From the IMG/VR virus record IMGVR_UViG_3300042287_000377, positions 1-22,956 of that record: a DNA stretch of 22,956 nucleotides; one strand, written 5' to 3'. Positions within the stretch are counted from its first letter, which is position 1; each line of letters starts with the position of its first letter. Positions 2,650 to 15,848 of the stretch are shown here, piece after piece. The notes beneath the pieces are model-generated. The model had not been told where the DNA came from, ran no database searches, and was given only the letters and a program-made list of their open reading frames with translations. Position numbers and translations under genes: made by a program. The stretch is from a virus.

Positions 2650-2758
2650 TGCCTTTTCCCTTCATCATTCTGTTTACACGCCGCCCCTGTTTACGCGCCG
2701 CGTTCCTACGTTGCTTCCTTGTCGCCGCCTTAACCCTATGCGTCGGCCAAATCACCAT
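2642..2758 (-). CDS. Very basic microprotein, 38 aa
   Basis: Begins MVIWPTHRVKAATRKQRRN; more than one third of the residues are Arg or Lys. The ATG lies inside the 3' end of the exonuclease gene (23-nt overlap) after GGGAAGGG/CAGG sequences, and its stop overlaps the next ATG by 8 nt. Translational coupling on both sides supports it, but composition alone cannot prove a short basic ORF. If real, it is a likely nucleic-acid-binding peptide. Confidence 0.5.
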   Translation of the reverse strand: MVIWPTHRVKAATRKQRRNAARKQGRRVNRMMKGKGNG

Positions 2759-3368
2759 CCTGCAACCCTTCCCTCTCTTGTGACTTAAATACGCTGACTT
2801 GCTGAACCTGCTCCGCCACGGCCACAAGTTTTTTTATGAGCTCGTCATCGCGCAAAATTTCCTGCGTGTGAATCTCGAAGCCCGGCGCGAATCCACCAGG
2901 TGAATCCATTCGCAATTCCCACGCAAAAATGGCGCGTGTGGCATCAGTGCACCAAAGTTGCCACTGAATCTGCCTCATGTAATGCGCGGGAATCTTGTCT
3001 AACGGCTTGCCACTCGTCTTGTACTCGCCAATCGTCTGGTGGTCGTCATGCCAACACAACCCGTCAGGTGTGGCCATCATCCACCGATCAGGAGACATCT
3101 TGCCACCCGCGGAAATCAGCCAGTCGTTCGGAAGCAATCCATGCCGTTCTTTGACGAATTCGGCAATGTAGGGTTCACGCTCATTGCCCCAATCCATGTA
3201 GGCGTTCGGCGTTACATCGCGCGGCTCGTCCAACTCCGCCAGTACTTCCTTCATCCCGGCGGGTGTAAATGCTCGGCTAACGGTGGTGGCCGTGACACCA
3301 GAAGCGCGAGCCTCCAGCCATTGCGCGCGATCCGTAGACCGAACAACAAAACGGTCAACCTCAATCAC
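2736..3368 (-). CDS. YqaJ/lambda-exonuclease-type recombination nuclease, 210 aa
   Basis: PD-(D/E)xK-fold 5'-3' exonuclease that resects DNA ends for phage recombination. Motifs in order: QWLEARASGVTATTVSRAF (N-terminal YqaJ motif), MDWGNEREPYIAEF (the conserved GxxxEP helix), MMATPDGLCW followed by IGEYKTS (active-site Asp and E-x-K) and YMRQIQWQLWCTDA (Q-x-Q helix). Length fits the family. The frame is open to 3404, but GTG 3368 overlaps the stop of the small membrane gene as GTGA, so it is taken as the start. Its likely partner is the annealing-protein candidate at 2131-2649. Confidence 0.9.
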   Translation of the reverse strand: MIEVDRFVVRSTDRAQWLEARASGVTATTVSRAFTPAGMKEVLAELDEPRDVTPNAYMDWGNEREPYIAEFVKERHGLLPNDWLISAGGKMSPDRWMMATPDGLCWHDDHQTIGEYKTSGKPLDKIPAHYMRQIQWQLWCTDATRAIFAWELRMDSPGGFAPGFEIHTQEILRDDELIKKLVAVAEQVQQVSVFKSQEREGLQDGDLADA

Positions 3369-3496
3369 AGCAGAAACCACCCAACCAACAACGCACCCAC
3401 ACACACAGCCGCCAACACACCAGCAACCAACGCAAGAATGTAATCCCGCAAATGCTCTCTACTATTAAAACTATTCTTGAACCTCTGCCACCACAT
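3365..3496 (-). CDS. Single-span membrane protein, first gene of the early operon, 43 aa
   Basis: The protein starts MWWQRFKNSFNSREHLRDY and is followed by one hydrophobic helix (ILALVAGVLAAVCVGALLVG). The basic amphipathic N-terminus suggests the N-terminus stays in the cytoplasm. ATG 3496 has the strong site GAAAGGAGAAC upstream, and the stop overlaps the exonuclease GTG as GTGA. It begins about 20 nt after the predicted start of the early transcript. Function unknown. Confidence 0.72.
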   Translation of the reverse strand: MWWQRFKNSFNSREHLRDYILALVAGVLAAVCVGALLVGWFLL

Positions 3497-3553: not shown

Positions 3554-3598
3554 AAAAAAAGAAGAGGCCCCGAGTCGAAGAGGCAGACGACTCGGGGC
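3554..3598 (-). terminator. Rho-independent terminator, leftward
   Basis: A perfect 11-bp inverted repeat, GCCCCGAGTCG (3567-3577) with CGACTCGGGGC (3588-3598), has a 10-nt loop. On the minus strand it is followed by a CT-rich stretch ending in seven T (3560-3554). It lies just upstream of the early promoter, so it would stop leftward transcripts arriving from the late region. Confidence 0.85.
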
Positions 3599-3660
3599 AG
3601 CGCAGTGGGGGAAAGGAATACCCGGCGCACTCAAATCATAGCAAAAAAAACTTTGAGAAA

Positions 3661-3712
3661 AGTTGCCAAATAAGTTGACAAGGTGGTGCAAATCACTAAA
3701 CTTATATATATA
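3661..3712 (+). promoter_or_regulatory. Rightward promoter of cassette A
   Basis: TTGACA at 3675-3680, a 16-nt spacer and TAAACT at 3697-3702, followed by the alternating TATATATATA tract. The flanking sequence matches cassette B (14375-14430): both have AAAAGTTnGC..AAATAAGTTGACA upstream and TTATATATATAGGGCAA downstream. A perfect -35 hexamer with shared flanks suggests a strong constitutive promoter. Confidence 0.75.
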
Positions 3713-3730
3713 GGGCAAAGCAGATAGCCC
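3713..3730 (+). promoter_or_regulatory. 5' leader hairpin of cassette A
   Basis: GGGC (3713-3716) pairs with GCCC (3727-3730) around a 10-nt loop AAAGCAGATA. It would sit at the very 5' end of the predicted transcript. The same stem with a 9-nt loop occurs in cassette B. A 5'-terminal stem commonly protects mRNA from decay; a regulatory role is possible. Confidence 0.45.
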
Positions 3731-3747
3731 CAAACGAAAGGGAAACC

Positions 3748-3981
3748 ATGAACACCAAAACAGTCTCCGTAGAATTCGCTTCACGCTTTCACATCATCAA
3801 CACTCGCGAATATCGCGGCTACATCATTTCAAAAGCTGTAGGCAAATACACAGGCACGCAGGTTTTTATGTTTGCACTCGATGACTACCTCTATGTTGGG
3901 AATGCAGGATACTGCGCCAAGACCCTCAAGCAAGCAAAGGTAATGATTGACTACGTCATTGACGAGCACGTTGCCGCTTAG
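3748..3981 (+). CDS. Small hypothetical protein of plus-strand cassette A, 77 aa
   Basis: Unrecognised protein of mixed alpha/beta character (YRGYIISKAVGKYTGTQVFM, then ALDDYLYVGNAGYCAK and a C-terminal helix KQAKVMIDYVIDE). It contains a repeated aromatic/Gly pattern and looks like a small soluble fold. ATG 3748 follows GAAAGGGA by four bases. The gene is expressed from its own promoter, ends in its own terminator and reads against all neighbours. This arrangement is typical of a moron, a gene expressed independently of the lytic programme. The function cannot be assigned. Confidence 0.8.
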   Translation: MNTKTVSVEFASRFHIINTREYRGYIISKAVGKYTGTQVFMFALDDYLYVGNAGYCAKTLKQAKVMIDYVIDEHVAA

Positions 3982-3994
3982 TCCGCAAACAAAG

Positions 3995-4025
3995 AAATCC
4001 CCCAGACTCAACACCTGGGGGATTT
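3995..4025. terminator. Bidirectional terminator between cassette A and the late operon
   Basis: AAATCCCCCAG (3995-4005) and CTGGGGGATTT (4015-4025) form an 11-bp stem with a 9-nt loop. Rightward it is followed by T-rich sequence (ATTTTCTT), leftward by ATTTCTTTGTTT, so it can end both the cassette A transcript and the converging late transcript. Its core and the upstream ACAAAGAAATCCCCC are shared with the cassette B terminator. Confidence 0.85.
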
Positions 4026-4040
4026 TCTTATGAGCGCAAT

Positions 4041-4106
4041 TTACTGACAACCCTCACACTGAGCAGCTTCAGCCGGATCAACAGGGCACGCAACCCCGCC
4101 AACCAT
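4041..4106 (-). CDS. Possible cysteine-containing microprotein, about 21 aa
   Basis: Downstream of the holin, a short frame encodes MVGGVACPVDPAEAAQCEGC plus one residue, with three cysteines including a CxxC. ATG 4106 has GAGG five bases before it; a GTG at 4121 overlapping the holin stop as GTGA would give 26 aa. Position in the operon and cysteine pattern favour a real peptide, but the length makes this tentative. Confidence 0.35.
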   Translation of the reverse strand: MVGGVACPVDPAEAAQCEGCQ

Positions 4107-4117
4107 GTCCACCTCGT

Positions 4118-4330
4118 TCACTCGGAAGCGTCAGGAACAAACTTGAAAGCAACAATCGAACCAGCCACAGCCACGATGCTCGCCGCAATCGAACCAATCG
4201 TAGCGGCCACTGAAGGCTCAATAACGCCTTGGGTAATCAACACTGGGAGAACAACGCCGAGCAGACCATTCAGGGCGATAACGACCCCGTAGATGCTCTT
4301 TCTGGTAGTAGTGCTAAGTAGTTTCTTCAT
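4118..4330 (-). CDS. Putative holin, 70 aa
   Basis: Holins are small membrane proteins that open the cytoplasmic membrane at lysis. This one has a short basic N-terminus (MKKLLSTTTRKSIYG), two hydrophobic helices (about 14-36 and 41-64) joined by a short loop with Pro and Glu, and a polar C-terminus, the layout of two-span holins. It follows the peptidase and a coiled-coil membrane protein, completing a lysis cassette. ATG 4330 has GGGAG eight bases upstream. Assignment rests on topology and position; no diagnostic motif is visible. Confidence 0.7.
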   Translation of the reverse strand: MKKLLSTTTRKSIYGVVIALNGLLGVVLPVLITQGVIEPSVAATIGSIAASIVAVAGSIVAFKFVPDASE

Positions 4331-4342
4331 TTCATTTTCTCC

Positions 4343-4612
4343 CTAAGGTGTTGTGTTTGTTTGATATAGACGGTCAAAAAGTGCGAGGCCGAAACCGACC
4401 AGGGCGAGAATACCCACCAAAATTGTGATCCAATGAACCTTCGGGCCACGCTGACTCTCCAAAACCGCAATCTTAGACTCAAGCTCAGCGATCCGTTTAT
4501 AGTGACCGTCACTCTCGTCACGCAATCTTTCAAGTGCTTGCATCATGGCATCCTGTTTCGCTTCAAGCCGGGAACAGGCGACAAGAACATCGGTCAGAGT
4601 TGGTGCAGCCAT
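4343..4612 (-). CDS. Coiled-coil membrane protein, lysis-associated, 89 aa
   Basis: N-terminal coiled coil (about 12-55, with heptad-like LERLRDESDGHYKRIAELES), a short linker, and one membrane helix near the C-terminus (WITILVGILALVGFGLALF, about 61-79). This resembles XhlA-like or other actinophage holin-accessory proteins with a helix bundle plus a single span. It begins three bases after the peptidase stop and lies directly before the holin. It may be a second holin, an antiholin or a lysis accessory. No strong ribosome-binding site is seen, so coupling to the peptidase is likely. Confidence 0.75.
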   Translation of the reverse strand: MAAPTLTDVLVACSRLEAKQDAMMQALERLRDESDGHYKRIAELESKIAVLESQRGPKVHWITILVGILALVGFGLALFDRLYQTNTTP

Positions 4613-4615
4613 GAC

Positions 4616-5401
4616 TTATGAACTCATACGCTTAGCGACATCATCATTCACCGTCTTGGGAATGGCCGCAAAATCATCCTTCAAGCTTGCATCAACAGCC
4701 GCCGCAATCTCAGCCGGTGTAACACCACCGCCAGAAATCGTGTCAACCTTCGACCAGGTGCCGCCCTCCTTCAACGCATTGAACGCAGAAGCCGGAACAC
4801 CCATAGCACCACAAAACGAAACCAGATCAGAAGTCTTCGCGTGCATCTTCGGTGTGCCGAACTGCCATGCAACATGGATGGCCTCACTGGCAGAAACCCA
4901 GTGGATAAACTCAGCCCCGACAAGATAGGTGCGTCCCTTAGACGTGTCTCCTACATATTTCATTTCGTCATCTCCGCTATCGGTTGGTTCATTTGTAAAG
5001 TATTCCCATTGGCGAACAACTTTGCCCTGCGGGTTTACGAGATCCCAGTGAATGTGTGGCCCGGTGCTCGAGCCGGTGTTTCCGCTAAACCCAATGGTAT
5101 CACCCGGCCCATAAACGCCAGGCGAGACAAACGCAGACAAGTGCATAAACTGATCATAAAAACCAGTCTCAGCCCCATCATCACCAATGTGGTAAAAGTC
5201 CACCGCATTACCCGCTGACGAATTAGACCAATTACGGACGCGGCCTTTTGTAGGCGCAATGACCGGCGACCCGGTTCGCACAGCAAAATCCACACCGCCG
5301 CGAGAACCACGCGCTAAATGCTCGTCAAACGAACAAGGCATGGTTGAGCACGGCTCAGAAATCGGATACCCGGCAGCACCCAGCGAATCATAGTAGCGCA
5401 T
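4616..5401 (-). CDS. M23-family peptidoglycan endopeptidase (endolysin candidate), 261 aa
   Basis: Zinc metallopeptidase that cuts peptide cross-bridges in peptidoglycan. The catalytic domain covers about residues 10-135: RGGVDFAV (35-41, Asp38), the GxxV strand TKGRVRNW, MHLSAF with His87, and GFSGNTGSSTGPHIHWDL with the H116-x-H118 zinc pair. The usual first ligand, His in HxGxD, is Arg34 here; His28 (DEHLARGS) may take its place. The C-terminal ~110 residues have no recognised fold and may bind cell wall. It is followed by the coiled-coil membrane protein and holin, which supports a lysis role; a virion-associated lysin is the alternative. Confidence 0.85.
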   Translation of the reverse strand: MRYYDSLGAAGYPISEPCSTMPCSFDEHLARGSRGGVDFAVRTGSPVIAPTKGRVRNWSNSSAGNAVDFYHIGDDGAETGFYDQFMHLSAFVSPGVYGPGDTIGFSGNTGSSTGPHIHWDLVNPQGKVVRQWEYFTNEPTDSGDDEMKYVGDTSKGRTYLVGAEFIHWVSASEAIHVAWQFGTPKMHAKTSDLVSFCGAMGVPASAFNALKEGGTWSKVDTISGGGVTPAEIAAAVDASLKDDFAAIPKTVNDDVAKRMSS

Positions 5402-5406
5402 GTGCG

Positions 5407-6090
5407 TTAGACGCTCAGAGGCTTCAGGAACTCGACTACCGTGACGACGGATGTCATTGCCAAGTTACCACCGCTGTCTTGGTTGAAAGACGCAATAATA
5501 TAATCCGTTGTCCCATTCATAGAAGTTACAAAACTGCCTCCGGTTGGCGTTACCGAGCCACCACCAATTGCAGCCACACTCCGCGAGTAAGATCGCGCAG
5601 TGTTTTTAAAAATGTTTGTGTTTCGCGTGCCACTAGAGTTTGAAGCAAATACCGCATCAGACGAAATCCGATAGAGACCCGCAACTGTCGGAATAATGCG
5701 TTGAGTATTTGTGGCCGCCGAATGCCAACCCAACGGGTCAATGTTCTCAGTGTAAAGATTACCCGTCGCACCCGCATCCGCCTGAACACCGTTGGTGGTC
5801 GTAAACGAACCACAAGTACCCATAAACACGGCACTACCCGGAACCGGGTACCAGCCCGCAGCACTTGCGCCCGAGGGGTTCGTTGATACGTTGTAGAGTT
5901 CGTAGTACTGCCAGACAGTTCCTGAGTCATTCAAAAAAGACATCATGCCCTGAGAAGGCGCAGCAAGAGCCGTCGTGCGCGCCGCAGAAGAAGCAAACAC
6001 CATCGTGGACTGATCCACCGCGTAACCCTGCAAGTTTGCGGCGGTCAGCACCTCACCCGAAGCAAAAAGCTTGTAACCGAGTCCAGCCAT
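5407..6090 (-). CDS. Minor tail protein, C1q-like receptor-binding candidate, 227 aa
   Basis: The N-terminal ~65 residues (LFASGEVLTAANLQGYAVDQ, then ARTTALAAPSQGMMSFLNDS) are a module I know from minor tail proteins of actinophages, thought to anchor the protein to the tail tip. A Gly/Ser/Ala-rich middle leads to a C-terminal beta-rich domain (about 130-227; GLYRISSDAVFASNSSGTR, repeated Ser/Thr/Gly strands, ending VVTVVEFLKPLSV) resembling a C1q/TNF jelly roll. Such domains trimerise and bind surface sugars or proteins. It lies between the baseplate hub and the lysin. The receptor is unknown. Confidence 0.75.
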   Translation of the reverse strand: MAGLGYKLFASGEVLTAANLQGYAVDQSTMVFASSAARTTALAAPSQGMMSFLNDSGTVWQYYELYNVSTNPSGASAAGWYPVPGSAVFMGTCGSFTTTNGVQADAGATGNLYTENIDPLGWHSAATNTQRIIPTVAGLYRISSDAVFASNSSGTRNTNIFKNTARSYSRSVAAIGGGSVTPTGGSFVTSMNGTTDYIIASFNQDSGGNLAMTSVVTVVEFLKPLSV

Positions 6091-6092
6091 GT

Positions 6093-7340
6093 TTATACTC
6101 CCAAAATTCCCGTATCAAGTTTGCCCTGCACCAGGTCATCCAAAATCAACGAACCGTACCCGAGCGCGTAATCTAATGATACCGTAGCCGTGAACAGCCC
6201 CGGCGTAGCATCATACCTAACACCGCTAATCAGCAACGCAGGAATGTTTATCGGATCAGTCGTCCCCACAGTCCCAGGAGGCAACCAATACGCGGCAGTC
6301 AAATAGCCAATGTCAATCGTCCGAAAGTTAAGCCTTGGTTTTGTTCTATCTTGAATGATGGCATCACTCGGTACAAACAAATCAAAGTTTTCCAAATTGT
6401 AAGTAACCTGACGAGGGATAAACGCAGGTTCACCATACAGCCCCACAATGCCATCAGCCACAGACTGCATTTGAGTTGAAGATGCAATCAACACATCATA
6501 CGAAGCAGGTCGCTGACCGTACTGGGTAACCGACGCAGTATCAGAAGCCGTCGCCGTCGCCGGCACACTGTCATTTGTCAACGTCACCGTGTTAAACATT
6601 CGGTCAAACGAATAATCAAACGTGACATCACTTGTCGTGCTGTTTACATCGCCCACAGCATTCGTGACGCGGATCTCGCTGAACACTGACACAGCGTTGC
6701 GAGACTCAAAGGTCAACGTGCCCAAACGATCCATGTAAAACTGGCCGAACTCAGACTGGGCAACCTTCGTCAAATACTCCAACGCAGAAACATCCGTAAT
6801 CGTCTCCGCCGCCAACGTCGAGTAACCGTTATCCACTGCCTGACTGGAAACAGGCCAACCAATGTTCGCCAACACGCGCCGAACTCGAGCACCCGACAAC
6901 TCCGCCGGAGCACTAATAGACGTAATAATTTTGCTACCCAAATAACTGAAAGCGTCAATGACATTGACAGTCACCGTGGCATCACCGTCCAAGGTGTAAT
7001 CGTAAGTCCACGAATCAACAAAGCCCGAAAAGACCGTGGCCGTAGACGAACCCTGAGACAGAAACAACGAAAACGCGCGACCAGGATAAAGTTCCCCATA
7101 CAACGGGGACGACGTGTTCACCGGGTCAAGCAACCGATCACGGTTATCAAAAACAACCGTTGCAGAACCCGCGCTGAAATTGTCAAAAAACGAGTTACGG
7201 CCACGACCCCAAGAAGCTGACCGAACCTTCGCCGCGATAGACGTTTGCAAATAACCGAGAACACCAGTGTCTAGTTGGTCAGTGCCTAACGTAAAACCCG
7301 TTGTAGTTTCAAGGGCAGCCGTAACATTCAAATCGAGCAT
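6093..7340 (-). CDS. Minor tail / baseplate hub protein, 415 aa
   Basis: The gene directly after the tape measure. It has the actinophage minor-tail signature: RSASWGRGRNSFFDNFSAGS (about 40-59), VVFDNRDRLLDPVN (62-75), SPLYGELYPGRAFSL, then a beta-rich hub-like fold including SGFVDSWTYDY and a C-terminal DDLVQGKLDTGILGV. LDTGxLG occurs near both ends (24-30 and at the C-terminus). Proteins of this type form the tail tip under the tube and carry the receptor-binding proteins. The start overlaps the tape-measure stop by one base. Confidence 0.85.
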   Translation of the reverse strand: MLDLNVTAALETTTGFTLGTDQLDTGVLGYLQTSIAAKVRSASWGRGRNSFFDNFSAGSATVVFDNRDRLLDPVNTSSPLYGELYPGRAFSLFLSQGSSTATVFSGFVDSWTYDYTLDGDATVTVNVIDAFSYLGSKIITSISAPAELSGARVRRVLANIGWPVSSQAVDNGYSTLAAETITDVSALEYLTKVAQSEFGQFYMDRLGTLTFESRNAVSVFSEIRVTNAVGDVNSTTSDVTFDYSFDRMFNTVTLTNDSVPATATASDTASVTQYGQRPASYDVLIASSTQMQSVADGIVGLYGEPAFIPRQVTYNLENFDLFVPSDAIIQDRTKPRLNFRTIDIGYLTAAYWLPPGTVGTTDPINIPALLISGVRYDATPGLFTATVSLDYALGYGSLILDDLVQGKLDTGILGV

Positions 7341-8854
7341 TAGGCCCCCGCAAAAACAGGGCCGGAAGCCTTCTCATAGCGTTTGATGTAAGCCACAATC
7401 TGCTGACCGATAACCTGCGGATCACCAACACCCGCCTGGACGTTGATGTTGTACGTTGCTCCGCCGCCCATATTGCCCAAACGATCCAACGGAATAATAG
7501 CCTCCGGCCCCGCCTCACCCACCAGGCCAACCATCGGCCCCATCACAATTCCACCTTCAGCAAAAGGCATAGGGCCACGAGGACGCGTAGGGAGACGTTG
7601 CCCCGTAGGATTCCCCAAACCCTGTGTATCCATTGTGTTCATTGCATTACCAATAACCTCATTGCCGCCAAAGTCCACCTTGGCAATTTGGCCAATAGAC
7701 GCACCAAGAAGATCCAGCACACCAATAACCATGTTGATTCCGTCAATAATGCCGTTGACAAAACCCTCAGCGGCGTTCAAAATGCCGCCAAACAACACCT
7801 GAAAACCGCCAGCCCAAGAAGCCATCAGCTCATTCCAGTTAGACACCACCCAAGTTGTCAACGCAATCACACCAGCAATCGCCATAATGATCGCCCCAAC
7901 AGGGTTAGCTGACATCACCGCATTCAAAACAACCATCGCCGCCGTTACAGCACCCAACCCGACAACAATGCCGTTCCAAATTTCCGGGTTATCTGCAACC
8001 CAACCAGAGAACGCAAAGAACGCTTCAATCAGGTCAATAGCGAAATCGCCAACCTTCGCAAAAGCCTCCTCAAGTTGAGGGCCATGCTCTTCAATGAACT
8101 CCTGAATTTTCTCAACAAACAAATTGAACGCTGGCAAAAGATAAACGCCAATCTGCTCCTGCAAATTCTGAACATTCTGCTGCAACACAGCAAACGGATC
8201 AGCCGCCGCCTTAGCCGCACCCGCATAAGTAGTCCCCAACGTTTGAATCAGATAATCCTGCGCCTCAATCTCACCACTCGTCGCAAGAGTCTCCTCATAA
8301 ATTTGCTTCTGAGCATCCGACAAAACAATCCCGGCACGCGTCAACTTAGACATCGCCGTCTCTTCGTCGCCAGCAACCTTCACAAAAATCTGACCAATAG
8401 CGGTCACATCCTTGCCCGTACCAGCAGCAACATCCGCAACAACCTTAACCATGTTGGTCAGGCCATCAACACCCTTACCCGCCAACTCCGGCACAGCCAT
8501 CCAGCCACGCACAATCGAGTTTAGAATCTCGTCATCAATACCCGTCAGGTTAGACAAGCTTTGCGTGTACTTCATAATCTCATCGGTAGACTTTTTTACC
8601 TCCGCAGCAGTATCACCAAACACACCCGAGTTCTTCGCAATCTGTTGCAAAGACTTAGACACCGATTCACTCTCAGCGGCAGCCCTCAAAGACTGATAAC
8701 CAAACGCAGCCGCACCCGCAGCCACAGCCGCAAACGCAGCAACACCCGCAGCCGCGAAACCACCCGCGGCTTTGCCCAGCCGATCCAAACCAGATTGTGC
8801 CTGGCCAATGCCCTTAGCATCAAACTTAGAGAAAATATTAAGACTAATAGGCAT
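7340..8854 (-). CDS. Tape measure protein, 504 aa
   Basis: Sets tail length and is thought to help deliver DNA through the cell envelope. N-terminal helical part with an Ala/Gly-rich hydrophobic stretch (about 30-55), a long helical body with 'tail measure' signatures (VRGWMAVPELAGKGVDGL, KVVADVAAGTGKDVTAIGQI), two strongly hydrophobic segments (about 290-345) and the typical C-terminal FAEGGIV...GLVGEAGPEAIIPLDRL. At roughly 1.5 angstrom per residue, 504 residues suggest a tail of about 75 nm, rather short. The start overlaps the preceding stop as TAATG. Confidence 0.95.
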   Translation of the reverse strand: MPISLNIFSKFDAKGIGQAQSGLDRLGKAAGGFAAAGVAAFAAVAAGAAAFGYQSLRAAAESESVSKSLQQIAKNSGVFGDTAAEVKKSTDEIMKYTQSLSNLTGIDDEILNSIVRGWMAVPELAGKGVDGLTNMVKVVADVAAGTGKDVTAIGQIFVKVAGDEETAMSKLTRAGIVLSDAQKQIYEETLATSGEIEAQDYLIQTLGTTYAGAAKAAADPFAVLQQNVQNLQEQIGVYLLPAFNLFVEKIQEFIEEHGPQLEEAFAKVGDFAIDLIEAFFAFSGWVADNPEIWNGIVVGLGAVTAAMVVLNAVMSANPVGAIIMAIAGVIALTTWVVSNWNELMASWAGGFQVLFGGILNAAEGFVNGIIDGINMVIGVLDLLGASIGQIAKVDFGGNEVIGNAMNTMDTQGLGNPTGQRLPTRPRGPMPFAEGGIVMGPMVGLVGEAGPEAIIPLDRLGNMGGGATYNINVQAGVGDPQVIGQQIVAYIKRYEKASGPVFAGA

Positions 8855-9384
8855 TAGCGGTCCATCTCATTAGTAACCATACGCTCGAACTTGTTAACAA
8901 CCATTTGAGCCGCCCGATTCAACAAAGGCCGTTGCGCCCAAAAATACTTCCACGCTATACGGTTACCACCCTTACCCTTCAACGGGCCAAACTTTTGCAC
9001 CATCATGGCAATAAAATGCGTACCTTGAGGCGTGTTGCCCGAAGAGCCTTTACTTCCAGCAGACTCCGCAGCAATGTAACCAGGCGCACCCTTCGGTGAA
9101 TCGACCTTGATGGCCAACAGCGGGGTCACATCACGCTGACGAGACCGAGCCATCGAAATAGACACTCGAGCCTTAGCGCCCTGCCAAATTAGCGAACGAG
9201 GCGTATACCCGCCCATGCCGGACAGCGGCGGAGTCACCTGAATACGCGACTGAATAGTACTCGCCATATCCTTAGCCGTCCCGCGCAACTCCTTGCGGAA
9301 CTGAGTCACAAGTTGGGGATCAATCTCTTTGAGTTTGGCAAGCATCTCACGCACACCCTCAGCGCGAACATCATACTTAATCAT
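8854..9384 (-). CDS. HK97 gp10-like tail completion / minor virion protein, 176 aa
   Basis: The N-terminus (MIKYDVRAEGVREMLAKLKE, then IDPQLVTQFRKELRGTAKDMA) and a basic central part resemble HK97 gp10-type neck/tail completion proteins. It lacks a clear diagnostic motif, so the assignment is tentative. ATG 9384 is chosen over the TTG one codon upstream because GGGAG lies nine bases before it. The location, between tail chaperone and tape measure, is unusual for a neck protein, which normally lies between adaptor and tail tube. Confidence 0.6.
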   Translation of the reverse strand: MIKYDVRAEGVREMLAKLKEIDPQLVTQFRKELRGTAKDMASTIQSRIQVTPPLSGMGGYTPRSLIWQGAKARVSISMARSRQRDVTPLLAIKVDSPKGAPGYIAAESAGSKGSSGNTPQGTHFIAMMVQKFGPLKGKGGNRIAWKYFWAQRPLLNRAAQMVVNKFERMVTNEMDR

Positions 9385-9412
9385 CAAAGACTCCCTAACC
9401 CAAGTTTACCGC

Positions 9413-9813
9413 CTACCGCTTAGGGTTATGCTTAGCAATCAAATAGCGTTCCATCGTCCACAACATTCGCGGCGACAACTGCACAAGCTCCCGAGGACTA
9501 ATGCCCGTCTCGCACGCAATCACCGCAAGATTCCAATGAACCGACGATGCGCCGAGACCCGCTATTTTTTTACTGTCGGAACCTCAACGCCAGCAATCGT
9601 TTCAGCGTAAGCCTCAAACTCGAGTGCCGTGGCCTTCGTCCGCGTCTCAGCCTTCCACGCAATGAACACCAGCCAAGACAGGCGCACACCCTTCTGGAAG
9701 TCGGCAACACTCTTGTCAAACTTGTCCTCAAACGCCATGAGGTCAGAGACAATAGCCGTCACTTCACGGCTCGTTCCATCAACGAAAGTGATGAGTAGGT
9801 TTATAGGATTCAT
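9413..9813 (-). CDS. Tail assembly chaperone G-T fusion by -1 ribosomal frameshift
   Basis: A longer product made by the first chaperone frame slipping back one base at 9571-9565. After Lys-Lys the ribosome would read IAGLGASSVHWNLAVIACET and on to a stop at 9415-9413, adding 50 residues that end MERYLIAKHNPKR. The -1 frame is open across the whole gap before the next gene, which would otherwise be unexplained. The position just upstream of the tape measure (one gene between) is where siphoviruses encode such G/GT pairs. GT is thought to bind the tape measure and recruit tube subunits and is absent from the finished virion. Confidence 0.82.
9562..9813 (-). CDS. Tail assembly chaperone G, 83 aa
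   Basis: In-frame product ending at a TAG directly after the slippery A-run. The protein begins MNPINLLITFVDGTSREVTA, is beta-rich at the N-terminus and helical afterwards (FEDKFDKSVADFQKGVRLSW, then LEFEAYAETIAGVEV), like other siphoviral tail chaperones. ATG 9813 follows the tail-tube stop by two bases; the frame extends upstream to 9864, but that part overlaps the tail-tube gene and looks non-coding. Confidence 0.8.
   Translation of the reverse strand: MNPINLLITFVDGTSREVTAIVSDLMAFEDKFDKSVADFQKGVRLSWLVFIAWKAETRTKATALEFEAYAETIAGVEVPTVKK
9565..9571 (-). promoter_or_regulatory. -1 frameshift slippery site
   Basis: On the minus strand GT AAAAAAA TAG: a run of seven A read as A-AAA-AAA in the zero frame, followed at once by the UAG stop of the short chaperone. 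Both lysine codons can re-pair after a -1 slip. A homopolymeric heptamer followed by a stop is a plausible shift site; no strong downstream stem was found by eye. Confidence 0.78.
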
Positions 9814-9815
9814 GG

Positions 9816-10244
9816 TTACGCAGTCGCCCTGGTAATGCCAGCAGTGCCGGAACCAAGAGGCCACGTCAAGTCGCGAGTGGCCAGATCTCCAACGCTTCCG
9901 CTAATCGGGTTTACCTGCGACACCAGGAAAACACCGGTGTAAGAAGGATTTGTGGCCGAGACACTTCCCGACGTGGGGCGAACAACAACCGTAGCGTTAC
10001 TGCCGTAAAGGTTGTAAATCGTCGAGTCAACCGCTTCAGAACCAGACGACCCAAAATCGTTGTGGAAAGAAAGCGTGATGCTGGCATCCTTTAGACCACC
10101 GACACGAGTGCGGAAACCTGAACCGCCGAAGGCCGTGGTCTCCACCTCATCGGCTGACAAATCCAGAGCCACGCTGGCGAGGTGATCGCTGAAGTCCACA
10201 CCATTTATGGACGTGGTAACGCTGGTCAATACGAACTTACCCAT
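9816..10244 (-). CDS. Major tail (tube) protein, 142 aa
   Basis: Forms the stacked rings of the tail tube. Beta-rich: ING VDFSDHLASVALDLS, then TTAFGGSGFRTRVGGLKD, DASITLSFHNDFG, and the C-terminal NPSYTGVFLVSQVNP with DLATRDLTWPLGSG. This matches short actinophage tail-tube proteins of the gpV/Hcp-like fold. Size is at the small end for tube proteins. It lies between the tail terminator and the chaperones, the standard place. GGAG is nine bases before the ATG. Confidence 0.87.
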   Translation of the reverse strand: MGKFVLTSVTTSINGVDFSDHLASVALDLSADEVETTAFGGSGFRTRVGGLKDASITLSFHNDFGSSGSEAVDSTIYNLYGSNATVVVRPTSGSVSATNPSYTGVFLVSQVNPISGSVGDLATRDLTWPLGSGTAGITRATA

Positions 10245-10258
10245 TTTTTATTTCTCCA

Positions 10259-10660
10259 TTATTCTGCGTAGACCTGAACTGCGAAATCTGCGGCGAGATA
10301 TGTTTGCTCACCTAAGTTTAGCGCACCAAGCGTGCTCATTTCAGAAAGGCGCACATCAAAAGCCGCCCCACCAAGTTGCCGGTCTGACTGCACCGCCGTC
10401 TTTATCGAACGCTCACCATTGCCAGCATACGCGTCCAGTTTGCGCTGTGCGTCCCGTTCAGCCACCCGGCCAACAATTAGTGTCACCGTAAAGTTATAGA
10501 GCGTCATGCCCCGGTTAAAGTCCAAATCGTAGGAGACGTTATTGAGTGCGATTACCGCGATAGGTGGTGATGGGTTATCCGGAATCTCCGCAGCAACACG
10601 CAACCCCGAAATCGTGGCAATGTTCGCAGCCAACCCGGCACGAATCTCAGCAATAGCCAC
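10259..10660 (-). CDS. Tail terminator / neck protein, 133 aa
   Basis: Located between the adaptor and the tail tube, where the protein that caps tube growth is normally encoded. Alpha/beta with ERSIKTAVQSDRQLGGAAFD (83-102) and a C-terminal strand LAADFAVQVYAE, typical of this actinophage protein. The start is GTG 10660, overlapping the adaptor stop as TAGTG. The stopper protein expected in this interval is missing, so it could be the stopper instead; the position directly before the tube favours terminator. Confidence 0.72.
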   Translation of the reverse strand: MAIAEIRAGLAANIATISGLRVAAEIPDNPSPPIAVIALNNVSYDLDFNRGMTLYNFTVTLIVGRVAERDAQRKLDAYAGNGERSIKTAVQSDRQLGGAAFDVRLSEMSTLGALNLGEQTYLAADFAVQVYAE

Positions 10661-11265
10661 TAGCCGGCACTCACCTTACGGAACGGGGCCACTAGAGCCT
10701 CCACATCCGGGTCAAACCGTCCCACACGCATCGAACCCAAGTCGTTGCTGATCATGCCAAGAGGCGCATCAAGCCGCTTGAACAAACGCATGGCAAGAAT
10801 CACCGTCGCCTGACGAATAGCCGCCGGAACAGCAGACCAACCAAACACACCCACCACCTGAATGAGAGCCTCAAGTTCGTAAAACGTACCAACCGAGAAC
10901 GACGGCATAAGATAATTGCCCGTCGCACGAATTCGAGTGAACGGCGTAACAAGACCACCGGCGACACCGTTCAACGGCTCGAGCTGGTAATCGCTCGTCG
11001 CCCAGGTGATGTCATAAGTCACACCGTCGCTGGAACTCTTTAGAGTCGTCACAGAGATAATGTCGTCGGTGGTCACTGTGTAAATGTTTGTCGGCGCGTA
11101 AACGCGTGTGCCCGTTGTGCTGTAAAAGAGTCGCTCACAGTAGCCGTCAATTTCGCGGCTGGCCGACTCGATGGCCAACTCGAGCAACGAGTCGTCAATG
11201 GAATCCTGCACGCGCAACGCCGCCTTCAAATCGGCAAGCGTGCAATATCCATTAGTGATGGCCAT
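10660..11265 (-). CDS. Head-tail adaptor (connector) protein, 201 aa
   Basis: N-terminal CTLADLKAALRVQDSIDDSL, then LLELAIESASREIDGYCERL: the helical core of gp6/gp15-like adaptors that bind under the portal ring. A beta-rich insertion follows (45-120), then a helical C-terminus (PAAIRQATVILAMRLFKRLD). The family uses this helical bundle to continue the DNA channel. It starts the tail-side gene block after the inserted glycosylation genes. Confidence 0.85.
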   Translation of the reverse strand: MAITNGYCTLADLKAALRVQDSIDDSLLELAIESASREIDGYCERLFYSTTGTRVYAPTNIYTVTTDDIISVTTLKSSSDGVTYDITWATSDYQLEPLNGVAGGLVTPFTRIRATGNYLMPSFSVGTFYELEALIQVVGVFGWSAVPAAIRQATVILAMRLFKRLDAPLGMISNDLGSMRVGRFDPDVEALVAPFRKVSAG

Positions 11266-11274
11266 GCTTCTAGT

Positions 11275-11793
11275 TTACCGCGTCACACCATAAAAATAGA
11301 GGTCACACGACTCAGCGTTGAACTCAAAACCAAAATCAGCAAACATGGTCGGCAAATCAAAGCAGTCCCGGAAATCCTGCTCAGTCAAGTTCATGTAGTA
11401 ATCATGCGTCGCCGGCGAATCGCCAGGATGTGCGCTGTGAGTCCCATGCTCAGCGCGACCCGTCGAAGCGCAAGTGAAAAACACATACTTGCCAGACATT
11501 CGCGCCATGTTCGCAAACGTCGCCACCCACTCCGAATTGTGCTCGAAGCACTCCGCCGACACCACAACATCAAACCAGTTATCAACATAATCGAGTGACT
11601 GCCCGGCACACACGCGATCCACGCCCGGCCCCTCCACCAGGTCAACGCCGATATATTCTTTCGCGTCAAAGAAATCGCGCACCGTCCCGTTAATATTCAG
11701 ACTGCCAACCTCGAGCACGCTCACACCAGTAAACGCATCCGGGAAACTCTCCCGCATATTCTCAAAAAACACTCTTTGCTCATCATGTGCCAT
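11275..11793 (-). CDS. SAM-dependent methyltransferase, 172 aa
   Basis: Class I methyltransferase fold. Motif I is VLEVGSLNINGTVRDFF (26-42), followed by an acidic strand YIGVDLVEGPGVDRV (47-61; Asp51 expected to contact the cofactor ribose) and WFDVVVSAECFEHN (73-86), equivalent to motif IV. The last part contains CASTGRAEHGTHSAHPGD, a His-rich loop near the substrate side. The start is taken at ATG 11793, overlapping the previous stop as TGATG. Grouping with three glycosyltransferases suggests that it methylates a sugar, but a protein or small-molecule substrate cannot be excluded. Confidence 0.85.
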   Translation of the reverse strand: MAHDEQRVFFENMRESFPDAFTGVSVLEVGSLNINGTVRDFFDAKEYIGVDLVEGPGVDRVCAGQSLDYVDNWFDVVVSAECFEHNSEWVATFANMARMSGKYVFFTCASTGRAEHGTHSAHPGDSPATHDYYMNLTEQDFRDCFDLPTMFADFGFEFNAESCDLYFYGVTR

Positions 11794-12452
11794 CACTTGC
11801 CCCAATCGTTAGCGCGTCGAATCTTCAAAGACCATTGCCCCGCAGTCACATCCCCACGGTCAACCTTCCTCACAAAATAAACCTCATTAGCGTTATAAGT
11901 TCGCGCGTTCTGTGCAACCCACTCAGTAGCGTGAACCGTCCCCTGTTTGACATGAGTGTGTGGCGCAGTGACTTGCCTAATGGCAACACCTGCAACTTCA
12001 CACCGTCGCTGGTAGTCGTCGTCCTCAAAATTGGCGGGGTAAAGGTTCTCGTCGAACAAACCGACCTTTTCGACGACGTTCTCACCAACACCAAAAAACT
12101 GATAGTGCGGCCACTCATCGCTTAGCGTCAACCCGTCCGGCGAACACTCCGCAGCAAAGCCCTCCAACGCACCAGGCTGAAACACCACATCATCACTCAC
12201 AACCATCCACCACGGTGCAAACGGGCTGAGCTTCACACCCAAATTCCATGATCCGGCACACCCAAGATTTGCTGGCATATTCAACACCCGATAATCCGCT
12301 ACACAATCCGGAATCGAATTAGTGCCCTTAAAGTTCGCGCTCGGGTGATTGTTCACAATGATGAGCAACCCAACCGGGTAGTCAATGCTTTTTAGCATTT
12401 GAGTGAGCAGGTCATGCCTGGTCAACGTGGGCACGATCATGCTAGGAATCAT
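11793..12452 (-). CDS. GT2-type glycosyltransferase (GT-A fold), 219 aa
   Basis: Starts with MIPSMIVPTLTRHDLLTQML, the first Rossmann strand and helix of GT-A enzymes. NLGCAGSWNLGVK (around 65-77) is the usual nucleotide-sugar region, WWMVVSDDVVF holds the acidic metal-binding pair, and FDENLYPANFEDDDYQRRC supplies the conserved ED catalytic region. Transfers a sugar from a nucleotide donor. The frame continues upstream to 12482, but ATG 12452 has AGGGG upstream and an 11-nt overlap with the previous gene. The acceptor is unknown; virion proteins are the likely target given the location. Confidence 0.87.
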   Translation of the reverse strand: MIPSMIVPTLTRHDLLTQMLKSIDYPVGLLIIVNNHPSANFKGTNSIPDCVADYRVLNMPANLGCAGSWNLGVKLSPFAPWWMVVSDDVVFQPGALEGFAAECSPDGLTLSDEWPHYQFFGVGENVVEKVGLFDENLYPANFEDDDYQRRCEVAGVAIRQVTAPHTHVKQGTVHATEWVAQNARTYNANEVYFVRKVDRGDVTAGQWSLKIRRANDWGK

Positions 12453-13152
12453 TACGACCCCTAAACCAAAACGCAGGGCCATCCAACACCGCAGCCGGTA
12501 AGTCGGGCAAGTCAGCCAACTGAGTCATCGGGTTGCCGTTCTCCACAGCCAAACCCTCCAGCCAACACTTCTCCACCCAGTCGTCCATGTTCTCACGCAC
12601 CAATTCCTGATGTGAGAAGTTGCGCCATTTTGTTTGCAAATCCTCGAGACTCAGAAACGATGAGAAGTGCCAACCGCCACGAATTTCCGGCAGACCTTGC
12701 CGTGTCTGAATCAGCTCCACAACATCCTTGCCCTTGAAGTGTTGCAGCGCGCCCGAAATTGAAGCCCACTCCACTTGCTGAAACCACCGGGCAGACATCT
12801 GATATTTGGTTATGTTCCAAACCGACAACTCGGGCCGTATCAGCTCAGTGACCAGGAACTCGTCAACATCGCACACGGCCACGAGAGCATCATCCGGCAA
12901 CCCGAGACTCAGCAGGTACGCGAACGCCTCACGTCGAAACGCATACTCATTCGCCCACGGGTTCGGATCAGTGCCGCCCTCCACGACGTAATGCAACACG
13001 TCCTCAAGGCCACTCAAATCAGACACCGGTTTGTCCAACCCAGTGAACGAACGTGTGGACTCATACACAATCGTCAAATCGGCCTCCATGTGTTGCATAC
13101 GCGCTTGCAACATTTCAGCCTCACCCGAATACGAAACAAAATCAACTAGCAA
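12442..13152 (-). CDS. GT17-like glycosyltransferase, 236 aa
   Basis: The N-terminus (LVDFVSYSGEAEMLQARMQH, then ADLTIVYESTRSFTG) and VAVCDVDEF with the D95-x-D97-E98 metal site match the family of beta-1,4-N-acetylglucosaminyltransferase-like GT17 proteins. RGGWHFSSFLSLEDLQTKWR (158-177) is another signature of this family. The start appears to be TTG 13152, with GAGGGAG a few bases upstream and an 11-nt overlap with the previous gene. GT17 members are uncommon in phages. The sugar added cannot be predicted reliably from sequence. Confidence 0.8.
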   Translation of the reverse strand: MLVDFVSYSGEAEMLQARMQHMEADLTIVYESTRSFTGLDKPVSDLSGLEDVLHYVVEGGTDPNPWANEYAFRREAFAYLLSLGLPDDALVAVCDVDEFLVTELIRPELSVWNITKYQMSARWFQQVEWASISGALQHFKGKDVVELIQTRQGLPEIRGGWHFSSFLSLEDLQTKWRNFSHQELVRENMDDWVEKCWLEGLAVENGNPMTQLADLPDLPAAVLDGPAFWFRGRNDS

Positions 13153-14344
13153 AATACTCCCTCAAGAAAGGCAACCAACCCCACTTCCAAACCCTTTCAG
13201 CGTCGAACTGAGACGCGAAATCACGGGCAACCTTAGACGGGCCACGGTCAGCCTTATACGCCTCCACAAGAGCGTTATAAATCGAATCAACAAGCGGGAT
13301 AGACCACCACGCCTTCTGAGGTTCATCCCAAAACGGAACACCCTGCAACAACCAACCATCCTCGGCCACCAGGTCAGCACTCGCCGCCCATCCCGACGCG
13401 ATCACACGCGTCCCGCACGCCTGAGCCTCGATGACAGGGATGCCAAAACCTTCCCCATACGAAGGGTTAGCCAACACGTCAAACGCGCTATAAAGGGCAG
13501 CCATGTCTTCCTGTGAGTAGCCTTTACGCAAACGGTCACGCTCCGGAAAAATAATTGACTCCGGCGGAACACCACAAGCTTGCAACAAAACGGGCAAGTC
13601 AAACCCGCCCATAATCCCCGAAGGCTCGGTGTGAATGTACAGTTTCGACTTTGGGTAAGACTTCAGAAAAATAGACCACGCCAAGATGAGCTCGCTGTAA
13701 GCCTTCCGGTGAATCAGCCCGTTAGCCTTATTCGCGCTGACGACGCCCACCAGGAACTCGTCAGGCTTCACCCCAAGATAGTCGCGTGCTTTCACCCCGT
13801 CACTCATCGTCTCGCGTGGCTTAAACGTCTTGGTGCAAATTGCGTGAGGGATATAAGTGCTGGCGATTCCTGCCGCTTCAAGTTGGCGTTGCCCATGCGG
13901 TGACATTGTGACAGGTGTCACGTTGGCTCTTAACAGCCATTTTGCACAGGCTGGCGGCAACGACTGGTGATCAAGCGGAACCCACGAAATAAACTTTGTC
14001 GGGAAATCGTTGCGCGGCGGAACATCGTTATACACCCACACGTCATAGAGCGTGAAACACGCATCAGGCACGCCCGGATTCTGCCCCACAAAATCCTCAT
14101 GCCACGGCTGGATAACGTCGTCCGAATACTGTTTGAACCCGCGAGGGTAATGAGGAATCTTCTTCCCAGCAAACTCAAGCTCACCAGCAACACCCTCAAG
14201 CCCGTAATTACTCAGTGCCGCCACCTTAATACCGTGGCGCACCATCCGCTCCACCAACATTGCACCCTGTTGCCCGTAACCTGTCGGCTGTCCGGGCGAA
14301 TTAGACACGAAAGAAATAAGGCCGTCAATTTGTTCGTAGGTCAT
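13142..14344 (-). CDS. GT4-type glycosyltransferase (GT-B fold), 400 aa
   Basis: Retaining GT-B enzyme. The N-terminal domain begins with FVSNSPGQPTGYGQQGAMLV, the acceptor-side glycine loop. The C-terminal domain has VGVVSANKANGLIHRKAYSE (199-218) and the donor-binding ANPSYGEGFGIPVIEAQACG (292-311), with the E298-x7-E306 pair. Length is typical. It is first in the sugar-modification block and starts after the major capsid terminator, so it needs its own promoter. No ribosome-binding site is visible before its ATG; a TAAACT six bases upstream suggests a leaderless transcript. Confidence 0.9.
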   Translation of the reverse strand: MTYEQIDGLISFVSNSPGQPTGYGQQGAMLVERMVRHGIKVAALSNYGLEGVAGELEFAGKKIPHYPRGFKQYSDDVIQPWHEDFVGQNPGVPDACFTLYDVWVYNDVPPRNDFPTKFISWVPLDHQSLPPACAKWLLRANVTPVTMSPHGQRQLEAAGIASTYIPHAICTKTFKPRETMSDGVKARDYLGVKPDEFLVGVVSANKANGLIHRKAYSELILAWSIFLKSYPKSKLYIHTEPSGIMGGFDLPVLLQACGVPPESIIFPERDRLRKGYSQEDMAALYSAFDVLANPSYGEGFGIPVIEAQACGTRVIASGWAASADLVAEDGWLLQGVPFWDEPQKAWWSIPLVDSIYNALVEAYKADRGPSKVARDFASQFDAERVWKWGWLPFLREYFAS

Positions 14345-14350
14345 GGCAAA

Positions 14351-14356
14351 AGTTTA
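14351..14356 (-). promoter_or_regulatory. Possible -10 element for a leaderless glycosyltransferase transcript
   Basis: On the minus strand TAAACT is followed by six bases (TTTGCC) and the GT4 ATG at 14344. Leaderless mRNAs with TAnnnT about six bases before the start codon are common in actinobacteria. It fits the absence of a Shine-Dalgarno sequence and the terminator upstream. No good -35 hexamer is seen, so support is modest. Confidence 0.35.
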
Positions 14357-14374
14357 GCCCGAAAAATGTCTAAA

Positions 14375-14430
14375 AAAGTTTGCAAAATAAGTTGACACGC
14401 GCCGTCAAATTGCTAGAATTATATATATAG
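14375..14430 (+). promoter_or_regulatory. Rightward promoter of cassette B
   Basis: TTGACA at 14392-14397, a 16-nt spacer and TAGAAT at 14414-14419, then the TATATATATAGGGCAA tract shared with cassette A. The spacer carries a small inverted repeat TTGAC-ACGCGCC-GTCAA that cassette A lacks and that could be an operator. Confidence 0.75.
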
Positions 14431-14447
14431 GGCAAGGCAGAAGCCCT
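14429..14447 (+). promoter_or_regulatory. 5' leader hairpin of cassette B
   Basis: AGGGC (14429-14433) pairs with GCCCT (14443-14447) around a 9-nt loop AAGGCAGAA. Stem and loop match the leader hairpin of cassette A, including the GCAGA in the loop. Confidence 0.45.
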
Positions 14448-14465
14448 CCAACGAAAGGGAACAAA

Positions 14466-14624
14466 ATGGAAATCTGGTTCACAACCGCTAAGAATGGCAA
14501 AGCCTCAGCTTGGTACTTCAACATGAACGCTCGCCGCTCGTTTCGCCTCCCAATGGAAACCGCTGAGTTCATGATTGCCACCGGCGAGGCCGTACAGATC
14601 GCAAAGCCTTTCCACCGCAACTAA
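14466..14624 (+). CDS. Small hypothetical protein of plus-strand cassette B, 52 aa
   Basis: A short gene between the capsid and glycosyltransferase genes, reading against both. The protein begins MEIWFTTAKNGKASAWYFNM and contains RRSFRLPMETAEFMIATGE. It looks like a small beta-alpha fold (strand, basic turn, helix). The ATG follows the site ACGAAAGGGAA, the same as in cassette A, and the gene ends 12 bases before its terminator. There is no clear similarity to the cassette A protein, so only the expression signals are shared. Function not recognised. Confidence 0.82.
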   Translation: MEIWFTTAKNGKASAWYFNMNARRSFRLPMETAEFMIATGEAVQIAKPFHRN

Positions 14625-14636
14625 ACACAGACAAAG

Positions 14637-14671
14637 AAATCCCCCGGCGAACCTACAACGCCGGGGGATTT
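14637..14671. terminator. Bidirectional terminator after major capsid gene and cassette B
   Basis: AAATCCCCCGGCG (14637-14649) pairs with CGCCGGGGGATTT (14659-14671), a 13-bp stem with a 9-nt loop. Rightward it is followed by CAGTTTTT, leftward by CTTTGT. It ends cassette B and lies 16 bases after the capsid stop, so it would also stop or reduce leftward late transcription. Confidence 0.87.
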
Positions 14672-14687
14672 CAGTTTTTACAACCGC

Positions 14688-15848
14688 TTAGGCAGTACCA
14701 CCACGGAAGTGAACAACGCTGGCAGCACCAAGACCAGAGTCCCCGCGCCACGTCACACGGAACGTAGTAACGTCCTGGTTGAACGCGTAGTCAGTCGAAG
14801 TTGCAACCTGAATACCGCCAGCCTGACGAACAATGAAGTCGTCAAGCTTTCCGTACACGATTGACTTCGAGGCGGCAGTTGCAGCAACAGCAGCCATCGA
14901 AGCGTTCTCGTGGATCACGTTGCCCATCAGGTAATCGCGGCCATCAACCGAAATTGAGGGTGCGAAAATGAAGTTACCTGCGGTGTCCTTGATCTTGCGA
15001 ATTGCAGCGAGGGCAGTCGTGGAAACCATAAACCCGTACGATGCGCGGTTGTCACCGGCTACCGAGTAGGTCAGGTCAACAAGGTTCTCGTAGGTCGGGA
15101 CACCGCCGGTTGCCGTACCGGTCACGGCCAGCGAGCTAGCCGTAACGATACCCGTAGGCTCAACAGTTCCCGTACCCGTAGTAAGTGCAGCACCAGCATC
15201 AAACGCGATTTCACGCGAAGAAATACGGGCAACCAAGTCGAGAAGGTTCACGCCACTGTCAGCGATAATCTCGTTGGACAGGCTAACCAGCGCACCGTAC
15301 TTGTAAGCACCAAGGTTTAGCTGGCTGAGAGTCGGGTTCGACTCAGCAATCGCAGAACCAGCAGCGGTCAGTGCATACGTTCCCGCAGCCGTAACCTTCG
15401 GGATCTGAAGCGTGTTGCCACCAGTGGTGTTGATGATGGTGGACGTGCTAAACAGCGGGTTGCTGTTCTGCAGGAACTCGAACACCTGGTCGTAGAAAGC
15501 GTAAGGAACAACGCCAGAACCCGAAGTCGGGGTCAGGGCGGCGCGGAACTCGTGACCACGCATTTCGCCCATAGCAATGCTACGAAGAATCGCAGAATCG
15601 TCACGAGCCTCAACAGCAGGAACGAAACCGCGAGCGGCCTCGGCAACCTCAGCCTGACGCTCCTCAGAGCGGCGTGCTACGGAAATGCCGGTGTCAATGT
15701 CGGCAATACGAGCCTCAAGACGCTCAACGTGTCCAAGGTCGTCAACGGTAAGGCCACGGGCCTCAGACTCAGCCCGATCAAGGATGTCACGAACCTGAAA
15801 AATCAGGTTAGCGCGTTCCTCAGTCTGGCCCTTAATGAAATCACTCAT
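14688..15848 (-). CDS. Major capsid protein, HK97 fold, 386 aa
   Basis: The N-terminal ~100 residues form a charged coiled-coil delta/scaffold domain (EERANLIFQVRDILDRAESE, then LGHVERLEARIADIDTG). The mature HK97-type body follows: SGVVPYAFYDQVFEFLQNSN, TLQIPKVTAAGTYALTAAGS, the E-loop-like region AESNPTLSQLNLGAYKYGAL, VSLSNEIIADSGVNLLDLVA and the C-terminal DFIVRQAGGIQVA with FRVTWRGDSGL. The delta domain is presumably removed by the protease encoded just upstream. The start has GGAG eight bases upstream, a good site for a highly made protein. Confidence 0.95.
   Translation of the reverse strand: MSDFIKGQTEERANLIFQVRDILDRAESEARGLTVDDLGHVERLEARIADIDTGISVARRSEERQAEVAEAARGFVPAVEARDDSAILRSIAMGEMRGHEFRAALTPTSGSGVVPYAFYDQVFEFLQNSNPLFSTSTIINTTGGNTLQIPKVTAAGTYALTAAGSAIAESNPTLSQLNLGAYKYGALVSLSNEIIADSGVNLLDLVARISSREIAFDAGAALTTGTGTVEPTGIVTASSLAVTGTATGGVPTYENLVDLTYSVAGDNRASYGFMVSTTALAAIRKIKDTAGNFIFAPSISVDGRDYLMGNVIHENASMAAVAATAASKSIVYGKLDDFIVRQAGGIQVATSTDYAFNQDVTTFRVTWRGDSGLGAASVVHFRGGTA

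Follow-up and report, generated by a model that had tools for sequence, protein, structure and literature searches.

Several systems are known in which small accessory genes are exchanged among viruses. Morons of tailed phages are independently expressed genes that lie between genes adjacent in relatives; the definition (Juhala et al., 2000) is quoted in PMC2629481, which also speaks of an 'ant moron' in P22-like phages. In T4-like phages the PeSL cassettes carry a repeated early promoter and stem-loop, which PMC4503421 presents as the homology for shuffling of small open reading frames (ORFs). Archaeal viruses place conserved early regulatory sequences before diverse anti-defence genes (Bhoobalan-Chitty, 2024; PMC11065993). 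The anti-CRISPR (acr-aca) genes of Pseudomonas phages are small, exchangeable accessory genes classed as morons (PMC6538845), and the P2/P4 defence hotspots are fixed loci with variable accessory genes (PMC9122126). Here, we describe two rightward units (3661-4025 and 14375-14677) that break the leftward gene run of IMG/VR virus record IMGVR_UViG_3300042287_000377, the whole 22,956-base stretch of which is referred to as the window. The units are probably filled slots of a two-site cassette platform, with small genes exchanged between the slots and between phages.

Shared promoter, leader and terminator

The two units match from the promoter to the ribosome-binding site. Each has TTGACA (3675-3680 at site 1, 14392-14397 at site 2), a 16-nt spacer and a -10 box of pattern TAnnnT (TAAACT at 3697-3702 and TAGAAT at 14414-14419), with the 16-mer TATATATATAGGGCAA following at 3703-3718 and 14420-14435. 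The 16-mer has exactly two matches in the window even when three mismatches are allowed, against 0.02 expected by chance, and in a promoter scan both promoters were among the best sigma-70 matches found. The ribosome site GAAAGGGAA is common to both units, as are AACGAAAGGGAA and ACAAAGAAATCCCCC. The 77- and 52-amino-acid (aa) ORFs that follow are the only plus-strand ATG ORFs of at least 40 codons in the window with an AAAGG-like ribosome site. A preliminary description had placed two matching units here, each with this promoter, TATATATATAGGGCAA, a ribosome site, one ORF and a terminator, and our analysis agrees. The AAAAGTTnGC that it reported is indeed in both units, but the copies are one base out of register; the end of the site 2 unit moves from 14671 to about 14672-14677. 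The features of the two sites and their flanks are as follows.

3656..3674, plus strand: upstream conserved AGAAAAGTTGCCAAATAAG box of site 1 (alignment of both sites and relatives)
3675..3702, plus strand: site 1 sigma-70-type promoter, TTGACA, 16-nt spacer, TAAACT; kept at site 1 in six other contigs
3703..3730, plus strand: site 1 core and leader, TATATATATAGGGCAA with the GGGC (3713-3716)/GCCC (3727-3730) hairpin (pattern search, fold and alignment)
3733..3744, plus strand: site 1 ribosome-binding stretch AACGAAAGGGAA
3748..3981, plus strand: site 1 cargo gene F1, 77 aa, no relative found
3989..4025, plus strand: site 1 terminator, which came with the cassette (empty alleles have a different terminator)
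14373..14391, plus strand: upstream conserved AAAAAGTTTGCAAAATAAG box of site 2 (alignment)
14392..14419, plus strand: site 2 promoter, TTGACA, 16-nt spacer, TAGAAT
14420..14446, plus strand: site 2 core and leader, TATATATATAGGGCAA with the GGGC (14430-14433)/GCCC (14443-14446) hairpin
14450..14461, plus strand: site 2 ribosome-binding stretch AACGAAAGGGAA
14466..14624, plus strand: site 2 cargo gene F6, 52 aa, relatives in L043, Puppers and L125
14631..14677, unstranded: site 2 bidirectional terminator common to the cassette and the convergent capsid gene, also in empty sites
4118..4330, minus strand: holin-like gene flanking site 1, anchor for finding relatives
2736..3496, minus strand: small ORF and RecE-like exonuclease gene flanking site 1, start of the leftward recombination operon
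14688..15848, minus strand: major capsid gene flanking site 2
13142..14344, minus strand: glycosyltransferase gene flanking site 2

The terminator hairpins, which begin with ACAAAGAAATCCCCC, have folding energies of -28.6 kcal/mol at site 1 and -19.9 kcal/mol at site 2 (z-scores -7.6 and -5.6). The terminator had been described as part of the cassette. This is the situation at site 1, where the empty alleles carry another terminator and the ACAAAGAAATCCCCC hairpin therefore came with the cassette; at site 2 the hairpin is present in empty sites too and is thus the capsid gene's own. The leader hairpin that had also been described is present in both units, but as a 4-bp GGGC/GCCC stem little better than shuffled sequence (z-scores -1.35 and -0.88), and it is absent from the alleles L028/L024.

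Outside the group, the general leader pattern gave mostly unrelated matches, in AT-rich sequence or in coding regions ahead of tape-measure-like genes, with a small number of promoter-like ones in other phages. Six unrelated phage contigs (L004, L009, L013, L016, L096 and L111) have small genes preceded by TTGACA..TATATATAGGGC or GGGC-hairpin leaders much like those described here, by convergence or through a wider promoter habit. A second promoter type is found at site 2, TTGCAT-18-TACCAT followed by TACACATATAGGGC; it is tied to the cargo families F8 and F9 (L035, L037, L040, L045, L047 and L086), and L068 is intermediate between the two types.

Variation and probable exchange at the two sites

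Relatives of site 1, the junction of the holin gene and the leftward recombination operon, were gathered by holin alignment, the RecE-like protein as anchor having given only two loci. For site 2, the capsid/glycosyltransferase junction, the glycosyltransferase was the main anchor and gave 24 close contigs, window included. The preliminary description had looked to relatives for the shared block, whose absence is not borne out: it was found in related contigs at the same two sites as in the window. Site 1 is filled in seven genomes and empty in three. At site 2, 18 of the 24 contigs are filled, four are cargo-less, one is promoter-only (the contig ends in the promoter) and one, L031, is empty. 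The empty state at site 2 is probably ancestral, since most of the distant relatives are empty there as well. On a glycosyltransferase (GT1) tree of 21 genomes, the inner branches of which are mostly weakly supported, the allele state changes at least 14 times, and a single eight-genome clade with support of 100/100 carries five allele types.

Judged on their sequence, both units are morons by the definition quoted in PMC2629481. Close relatives have the flanking genes side by side, as the empty alleles at both sites demonstrate; promoter and terminator scans and folds assign to each a promoter and terminator; and different phages hold different genes at the same place, from five families at site 1 and nine at site 2. 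Discrete insertions and clean empty sites might equally be expected of a self-mobile element, transposon-like or endonuclease-driven, that inserts at both sites. We regard such an element as highly improbable. The flanks of the empty L031 and the filled L043 are the same, and the boundary between them has neither a target-site duplication nor a terminal inverted repeat; a nuclease or transposase was recognised in no cassette; and the insertions are confined to the same two sites, where the flanks stay site-specific while the ORF changes.

Exchange is indicated by one cargo family, F5 (66 aa), which L015 and L108 carry at site 1 and L017 at site 2. A comparison of L017 with L108 gives 96.5% identity for the ORF and 27 of 27 identical bases for the segment from the -10 box to the hairpin. 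The parts that are typical of each site are much less alike, with 74% identity far upstream, 57% in the -35/spacer region and 66% in the terminator. Pairs from the same site with different cargo have the reverse pattern, 78-98% far upstream and 90-91% in the terminator but about 50% in the ORF. Because the F5 ORF and core are near-identical while flanks and terminators are site-specific, genes appear to be exchanged between the shared promoter-leader and terminator blocks, and the alignments are most simply read as recombination with one crossover in the shared core and another close to the stop codon/terminator. Two leader variants, GGGCAGGCAGCCC and AAGCAGATAGCCCC, are each seen at both sites, and the third gene of L036, which retains the GGGCAGGCAGCCC leader without a promoter, is by its sequence a fused cassette.

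The likeness of the two units could instead be that of two independent, ordinary morons, with promoters that resemble each other merely because both approach the host sigma-A consensus, and with no exchange between sites. Convergence on the core is possible, given that the unrelated phages L004, L009, L013 and L016 also have TTGACA..TATATATAGGGC promoters. The likeness runs on, however, through the leader and ribosome site, the leader variants are mixed between sites, and the cross-site identity of F5 in both ORF and core contradicts independence. Two unconnected morons are therefore rather improbable, and we favour exchange between the sites.

The capsid/glycosyltransferase junction itself seems, from the sequence of one distant relative, to tolerate insertions, since L067 (glycosyltransferase 52% identical) has an independent rightward two-gene unit there with a different promoter. 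The adjacent region of the window (11275-14344) has a methyltransferase and glycosyltransferases between the capsid and neck genes; phiPsal1, the nearest isolate, has them too, with the methyltransferase on the opposite strand. Between site 1 and the leftward recombination operon, at 3567-3598, lies a perfect 11-bp inverted repeat (GCCCCGAGTCG/CGACTCGGGGC; fold z-score -4.8). In relatives its arms vary with the stem largely kept, and there is hardly any change in the loop AAGAGGCAGA. The repeat, which lies just upstream of a TTGACG-17-TAGAGT promoter (3552-3524), resembles a leftward terminator or attenuator.

Cargo genes, phage lifestyle and proposed mechanism

The cargo comprises 13 protein families of 46-92 aa, F1-F5 at site 1 and F5-F13 at site 2, which within the group's contigs were found only at these two sites. 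Site 2 cargo occurs singly or as operons of two or three genes, and alignment unites F8, F9 and F10 in one superfamily. A conserved expression frame with differing cargo, as had been proposed from the window, is thus upheld by the number of families, by the empty alleles and by the one family present at both sites. It had also been remarked that the 77-aa (F1) and 52-aa (F6) proteins look unrelated, and sequence comparison detects no relation. As to conservation of these two ORFs, F6 has relatives in L043 (90% identical), Gordonia phage Puppers (gp49, 45%) and contig L125 (53%), whereas none was found for F1 in phages and viral contigs. In Puppers and L125 the F6 relative sits among runs of small genes, gp49 being near the DNA polymerase. 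F1 has a GC content of 46.2%, as low as the lowest value among 30 other genes of the window, and F6 one of 52.8%, the same as the genome. A low-confidence structure model of F1 (pLDDT 52) is beta-beta-beta-beta-alpha; the helical model of F8 (pLDDT 69) had no match in the PDB. Family matches of the cargos were all weak, for example those of F6 to phrog_16129 'excisionase' (E = 0.021) and of F7 to phrog_24339 (E = 0.011), and were set aside.

Values of dN/dS are 0.06-0.47 across F5, F6, F8, F9 and F12 (0.29 for F6 against L043), so these five families are, on codon-level comparison, real proteins under purifying selection. This bears on the idea that it is the transcript that is conserved, as an antisense, roadblock or small RNA separating operons, the ORFs being incidental. 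The cargo-less L041, L042, L044 and L061 lend it something, for they retain a promoter-like TTGCCA-N17-TATCCT directly before the site 2 terminator. Set against this are the dN/dS values, the good ribosome sites, the operons of two or three genes and the wholly empty sites of other genomes, which make an RNA function very improbable. The RNA of the four cargo-less alleles would be short, at about 60-70 nt, and would contain two CCCCC runs that could pair with its one GGGGG run.

The mostly leftward genes of the window are those of a small tailed phage (terminase, portal, protease/capsid, glycosyltransferases, tail, M23 peptidase, holin, RecE-like exonuclease and WhiB). The Pontimonas phage phiPsal1 (31,069 bases; L022) has the same gene order and a terminase 48% identical, and is reported as lytic, without sign of integration (PMC6106888). 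The relative L023/L024 (30,853 bases) is a nearly whole genome, since its contig break falls within one tail gene, and the exact promoter-core pattern is found in it two times only, at the sites that the pattern occupies in the window. Neither phiPsal1 nor the group contigs tested yielded a tyrosine or serine integrase domain, and no integrase or cI-like repressor is apparent among the ORFs of the 30.85-kb contig. A library of bacterial genomes gave no match to the promoter core, and no integrated copy turned up; among isolate phage DNA none carried the block, with Citrobacter phages giving chance 80% matches only. The group apparently consists of small (about 31 kb), lytic phages of Microbacteriaceae-like actinobacteria. 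In the place of site 1, phiPsal1 has an opposite-strand gene (18564-18767) for a 67-aa helix-turn-helix (HTH) protein annotated as cI/cro-like, so that a regulator may stand there instead of the window's cargo.

Expression from a repressed prophage is often listed for morons, though it lies outside the definition quoted above. Were the units lysogeny morons, expressed from the prophage to alter or protect the host cell, their classical anatomy (opposite strand, own promoter and terminator) would be accounted for, and the cI/cro-like gene of phiPsal1 would be in keeping. A lysogenic role is nevertheless unlikely, given that the group yielded no integrase of the tyrosine or serine type and that phiPsal1 is described as lytic; the lack of an apparent cI-like repressor in the 30.85-kb contig points the same way, and we consider lysogeny morons distinctly improbable. 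Expression outside the late programme, which the preliminary description had thought likely, would fit the consensus host-type promoter and the opposite strand.

In the exchange platform that we favour, each slot lies where one leftward gene has its 3' end and the next leftward operon starts, and contains a promoter of sigma-70 type directed rightward, together with a short leader and a terminator. Small genes, singly or in two- to three-gene operons, would move between slots and between phages by recombination, with one crossover within the near-identical -10/leader core and the other at the stop codon/terminator or close to it. The RecE-like exonuclease, the gene of which adjoins site 1, and a neighbouring ERF-like protein may promote this short-homology exchange. 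Host RNA polymerase would read the units right after DNA entry, independently of the leftward programme. The leader hairpin would lie within a few bases of the RNA 5' end, at the usual promoter-to-start distance, and is presumably a minor stabiliser only, as L028/L024 are without it. The cargos may be early counter-defence or host-takeover proteins, a suggestion that we make tentatively, with a value that depends on the host strain; this would explain the fast turnover. Fast turnover, purifying selection and one strong promoter fit such a strain-dependent role. A bolder version, in which the recombinase pair moves counter-defence ORFs one at a time, with ORF precision, among slots and co-infecting phages, and a 31-kb lytic phage thereby draws on a shared anti-defence pool, integron-like without an integrase, seems unlikely.

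Several points weigh against exchange of this kind, or against parts of it. Only F5 is seen at both sites, phiPsal1 is without the promoter-leader block, and every relative except phiPsal1 is a metagenome contig. Besides being weak, the leader hairpin has nearly invariant stem pairs, which give no covariation support. No cargo belongs to a family of known function or has a convincing match to a defence or counter-defence model (Pfam, PHROGs, NCBIfam and PADLOC), and F1, having no relative, is taken as coding from its anatomy. The conserved gene next to the RecE-like gene (2131-2649) encodes a putative ERF-type annealing protein, no relatives of which were found in bacterial genomes.

The arrangement provides a predictive rule for this phage group: a sequence behind TTGACA-N16-TAnnnT-TATATATATAGGGC at the holin or capsid junction should be a fast-changing accessory protein. 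It also yields 13 small families, of unrecognised function, for testing against the defence systems of streamlined aquatic actinobacteria, hosts for which few phages are in culture, and a natural case for measuring single-gene exchange between fixed phage loci.

Comparison with known systems

We found no description of a promoter-leader frame that recurs at two fixed sites and exchanges single ORFs between them, although the literature covered was partial and this is weak evidence. As with morons of tailed phages, the units are predicted to be independently expressed, and they differ in their genes at the same place. Unlike classic morons, two sites with one promoter-leader block trade cargo here, the phages are apparently lytic, and the site 2 terminator is borrowed from the capsid gene. 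The P2/P4 hotspots hold larger defence systems, in prophages and satellites, whereas the proteins here are of 46-92 aa in apparently lytic phages. The acr-aca loci differ in their regulator: no HTH family was found among the cargos searched, no Aca-like gene was recognised in the cassettes and no cargo matched an Acr family.

In PeSL cassettes the promoter and stem-loop form one composite intergenic motif. The units share with them a repeated promoter/stem-loop motif at shuffled ORFs and would work alike without being members of that class, for the 31-kb phiPsal1-like genome is not T4-like, there are two sites only, and promoter and terminator flank the ORF.

The early regulatory sequences of archaeal viruses are, by analogy, the closest published parallel. 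This is a bacterial phage with a sigma-70 promoter and no recognised Aca-like regulator in its cassettes, and the likeness is one of sequence; in both systems, a highly similar strong promoter block stands before unrelated small genes of one virus.

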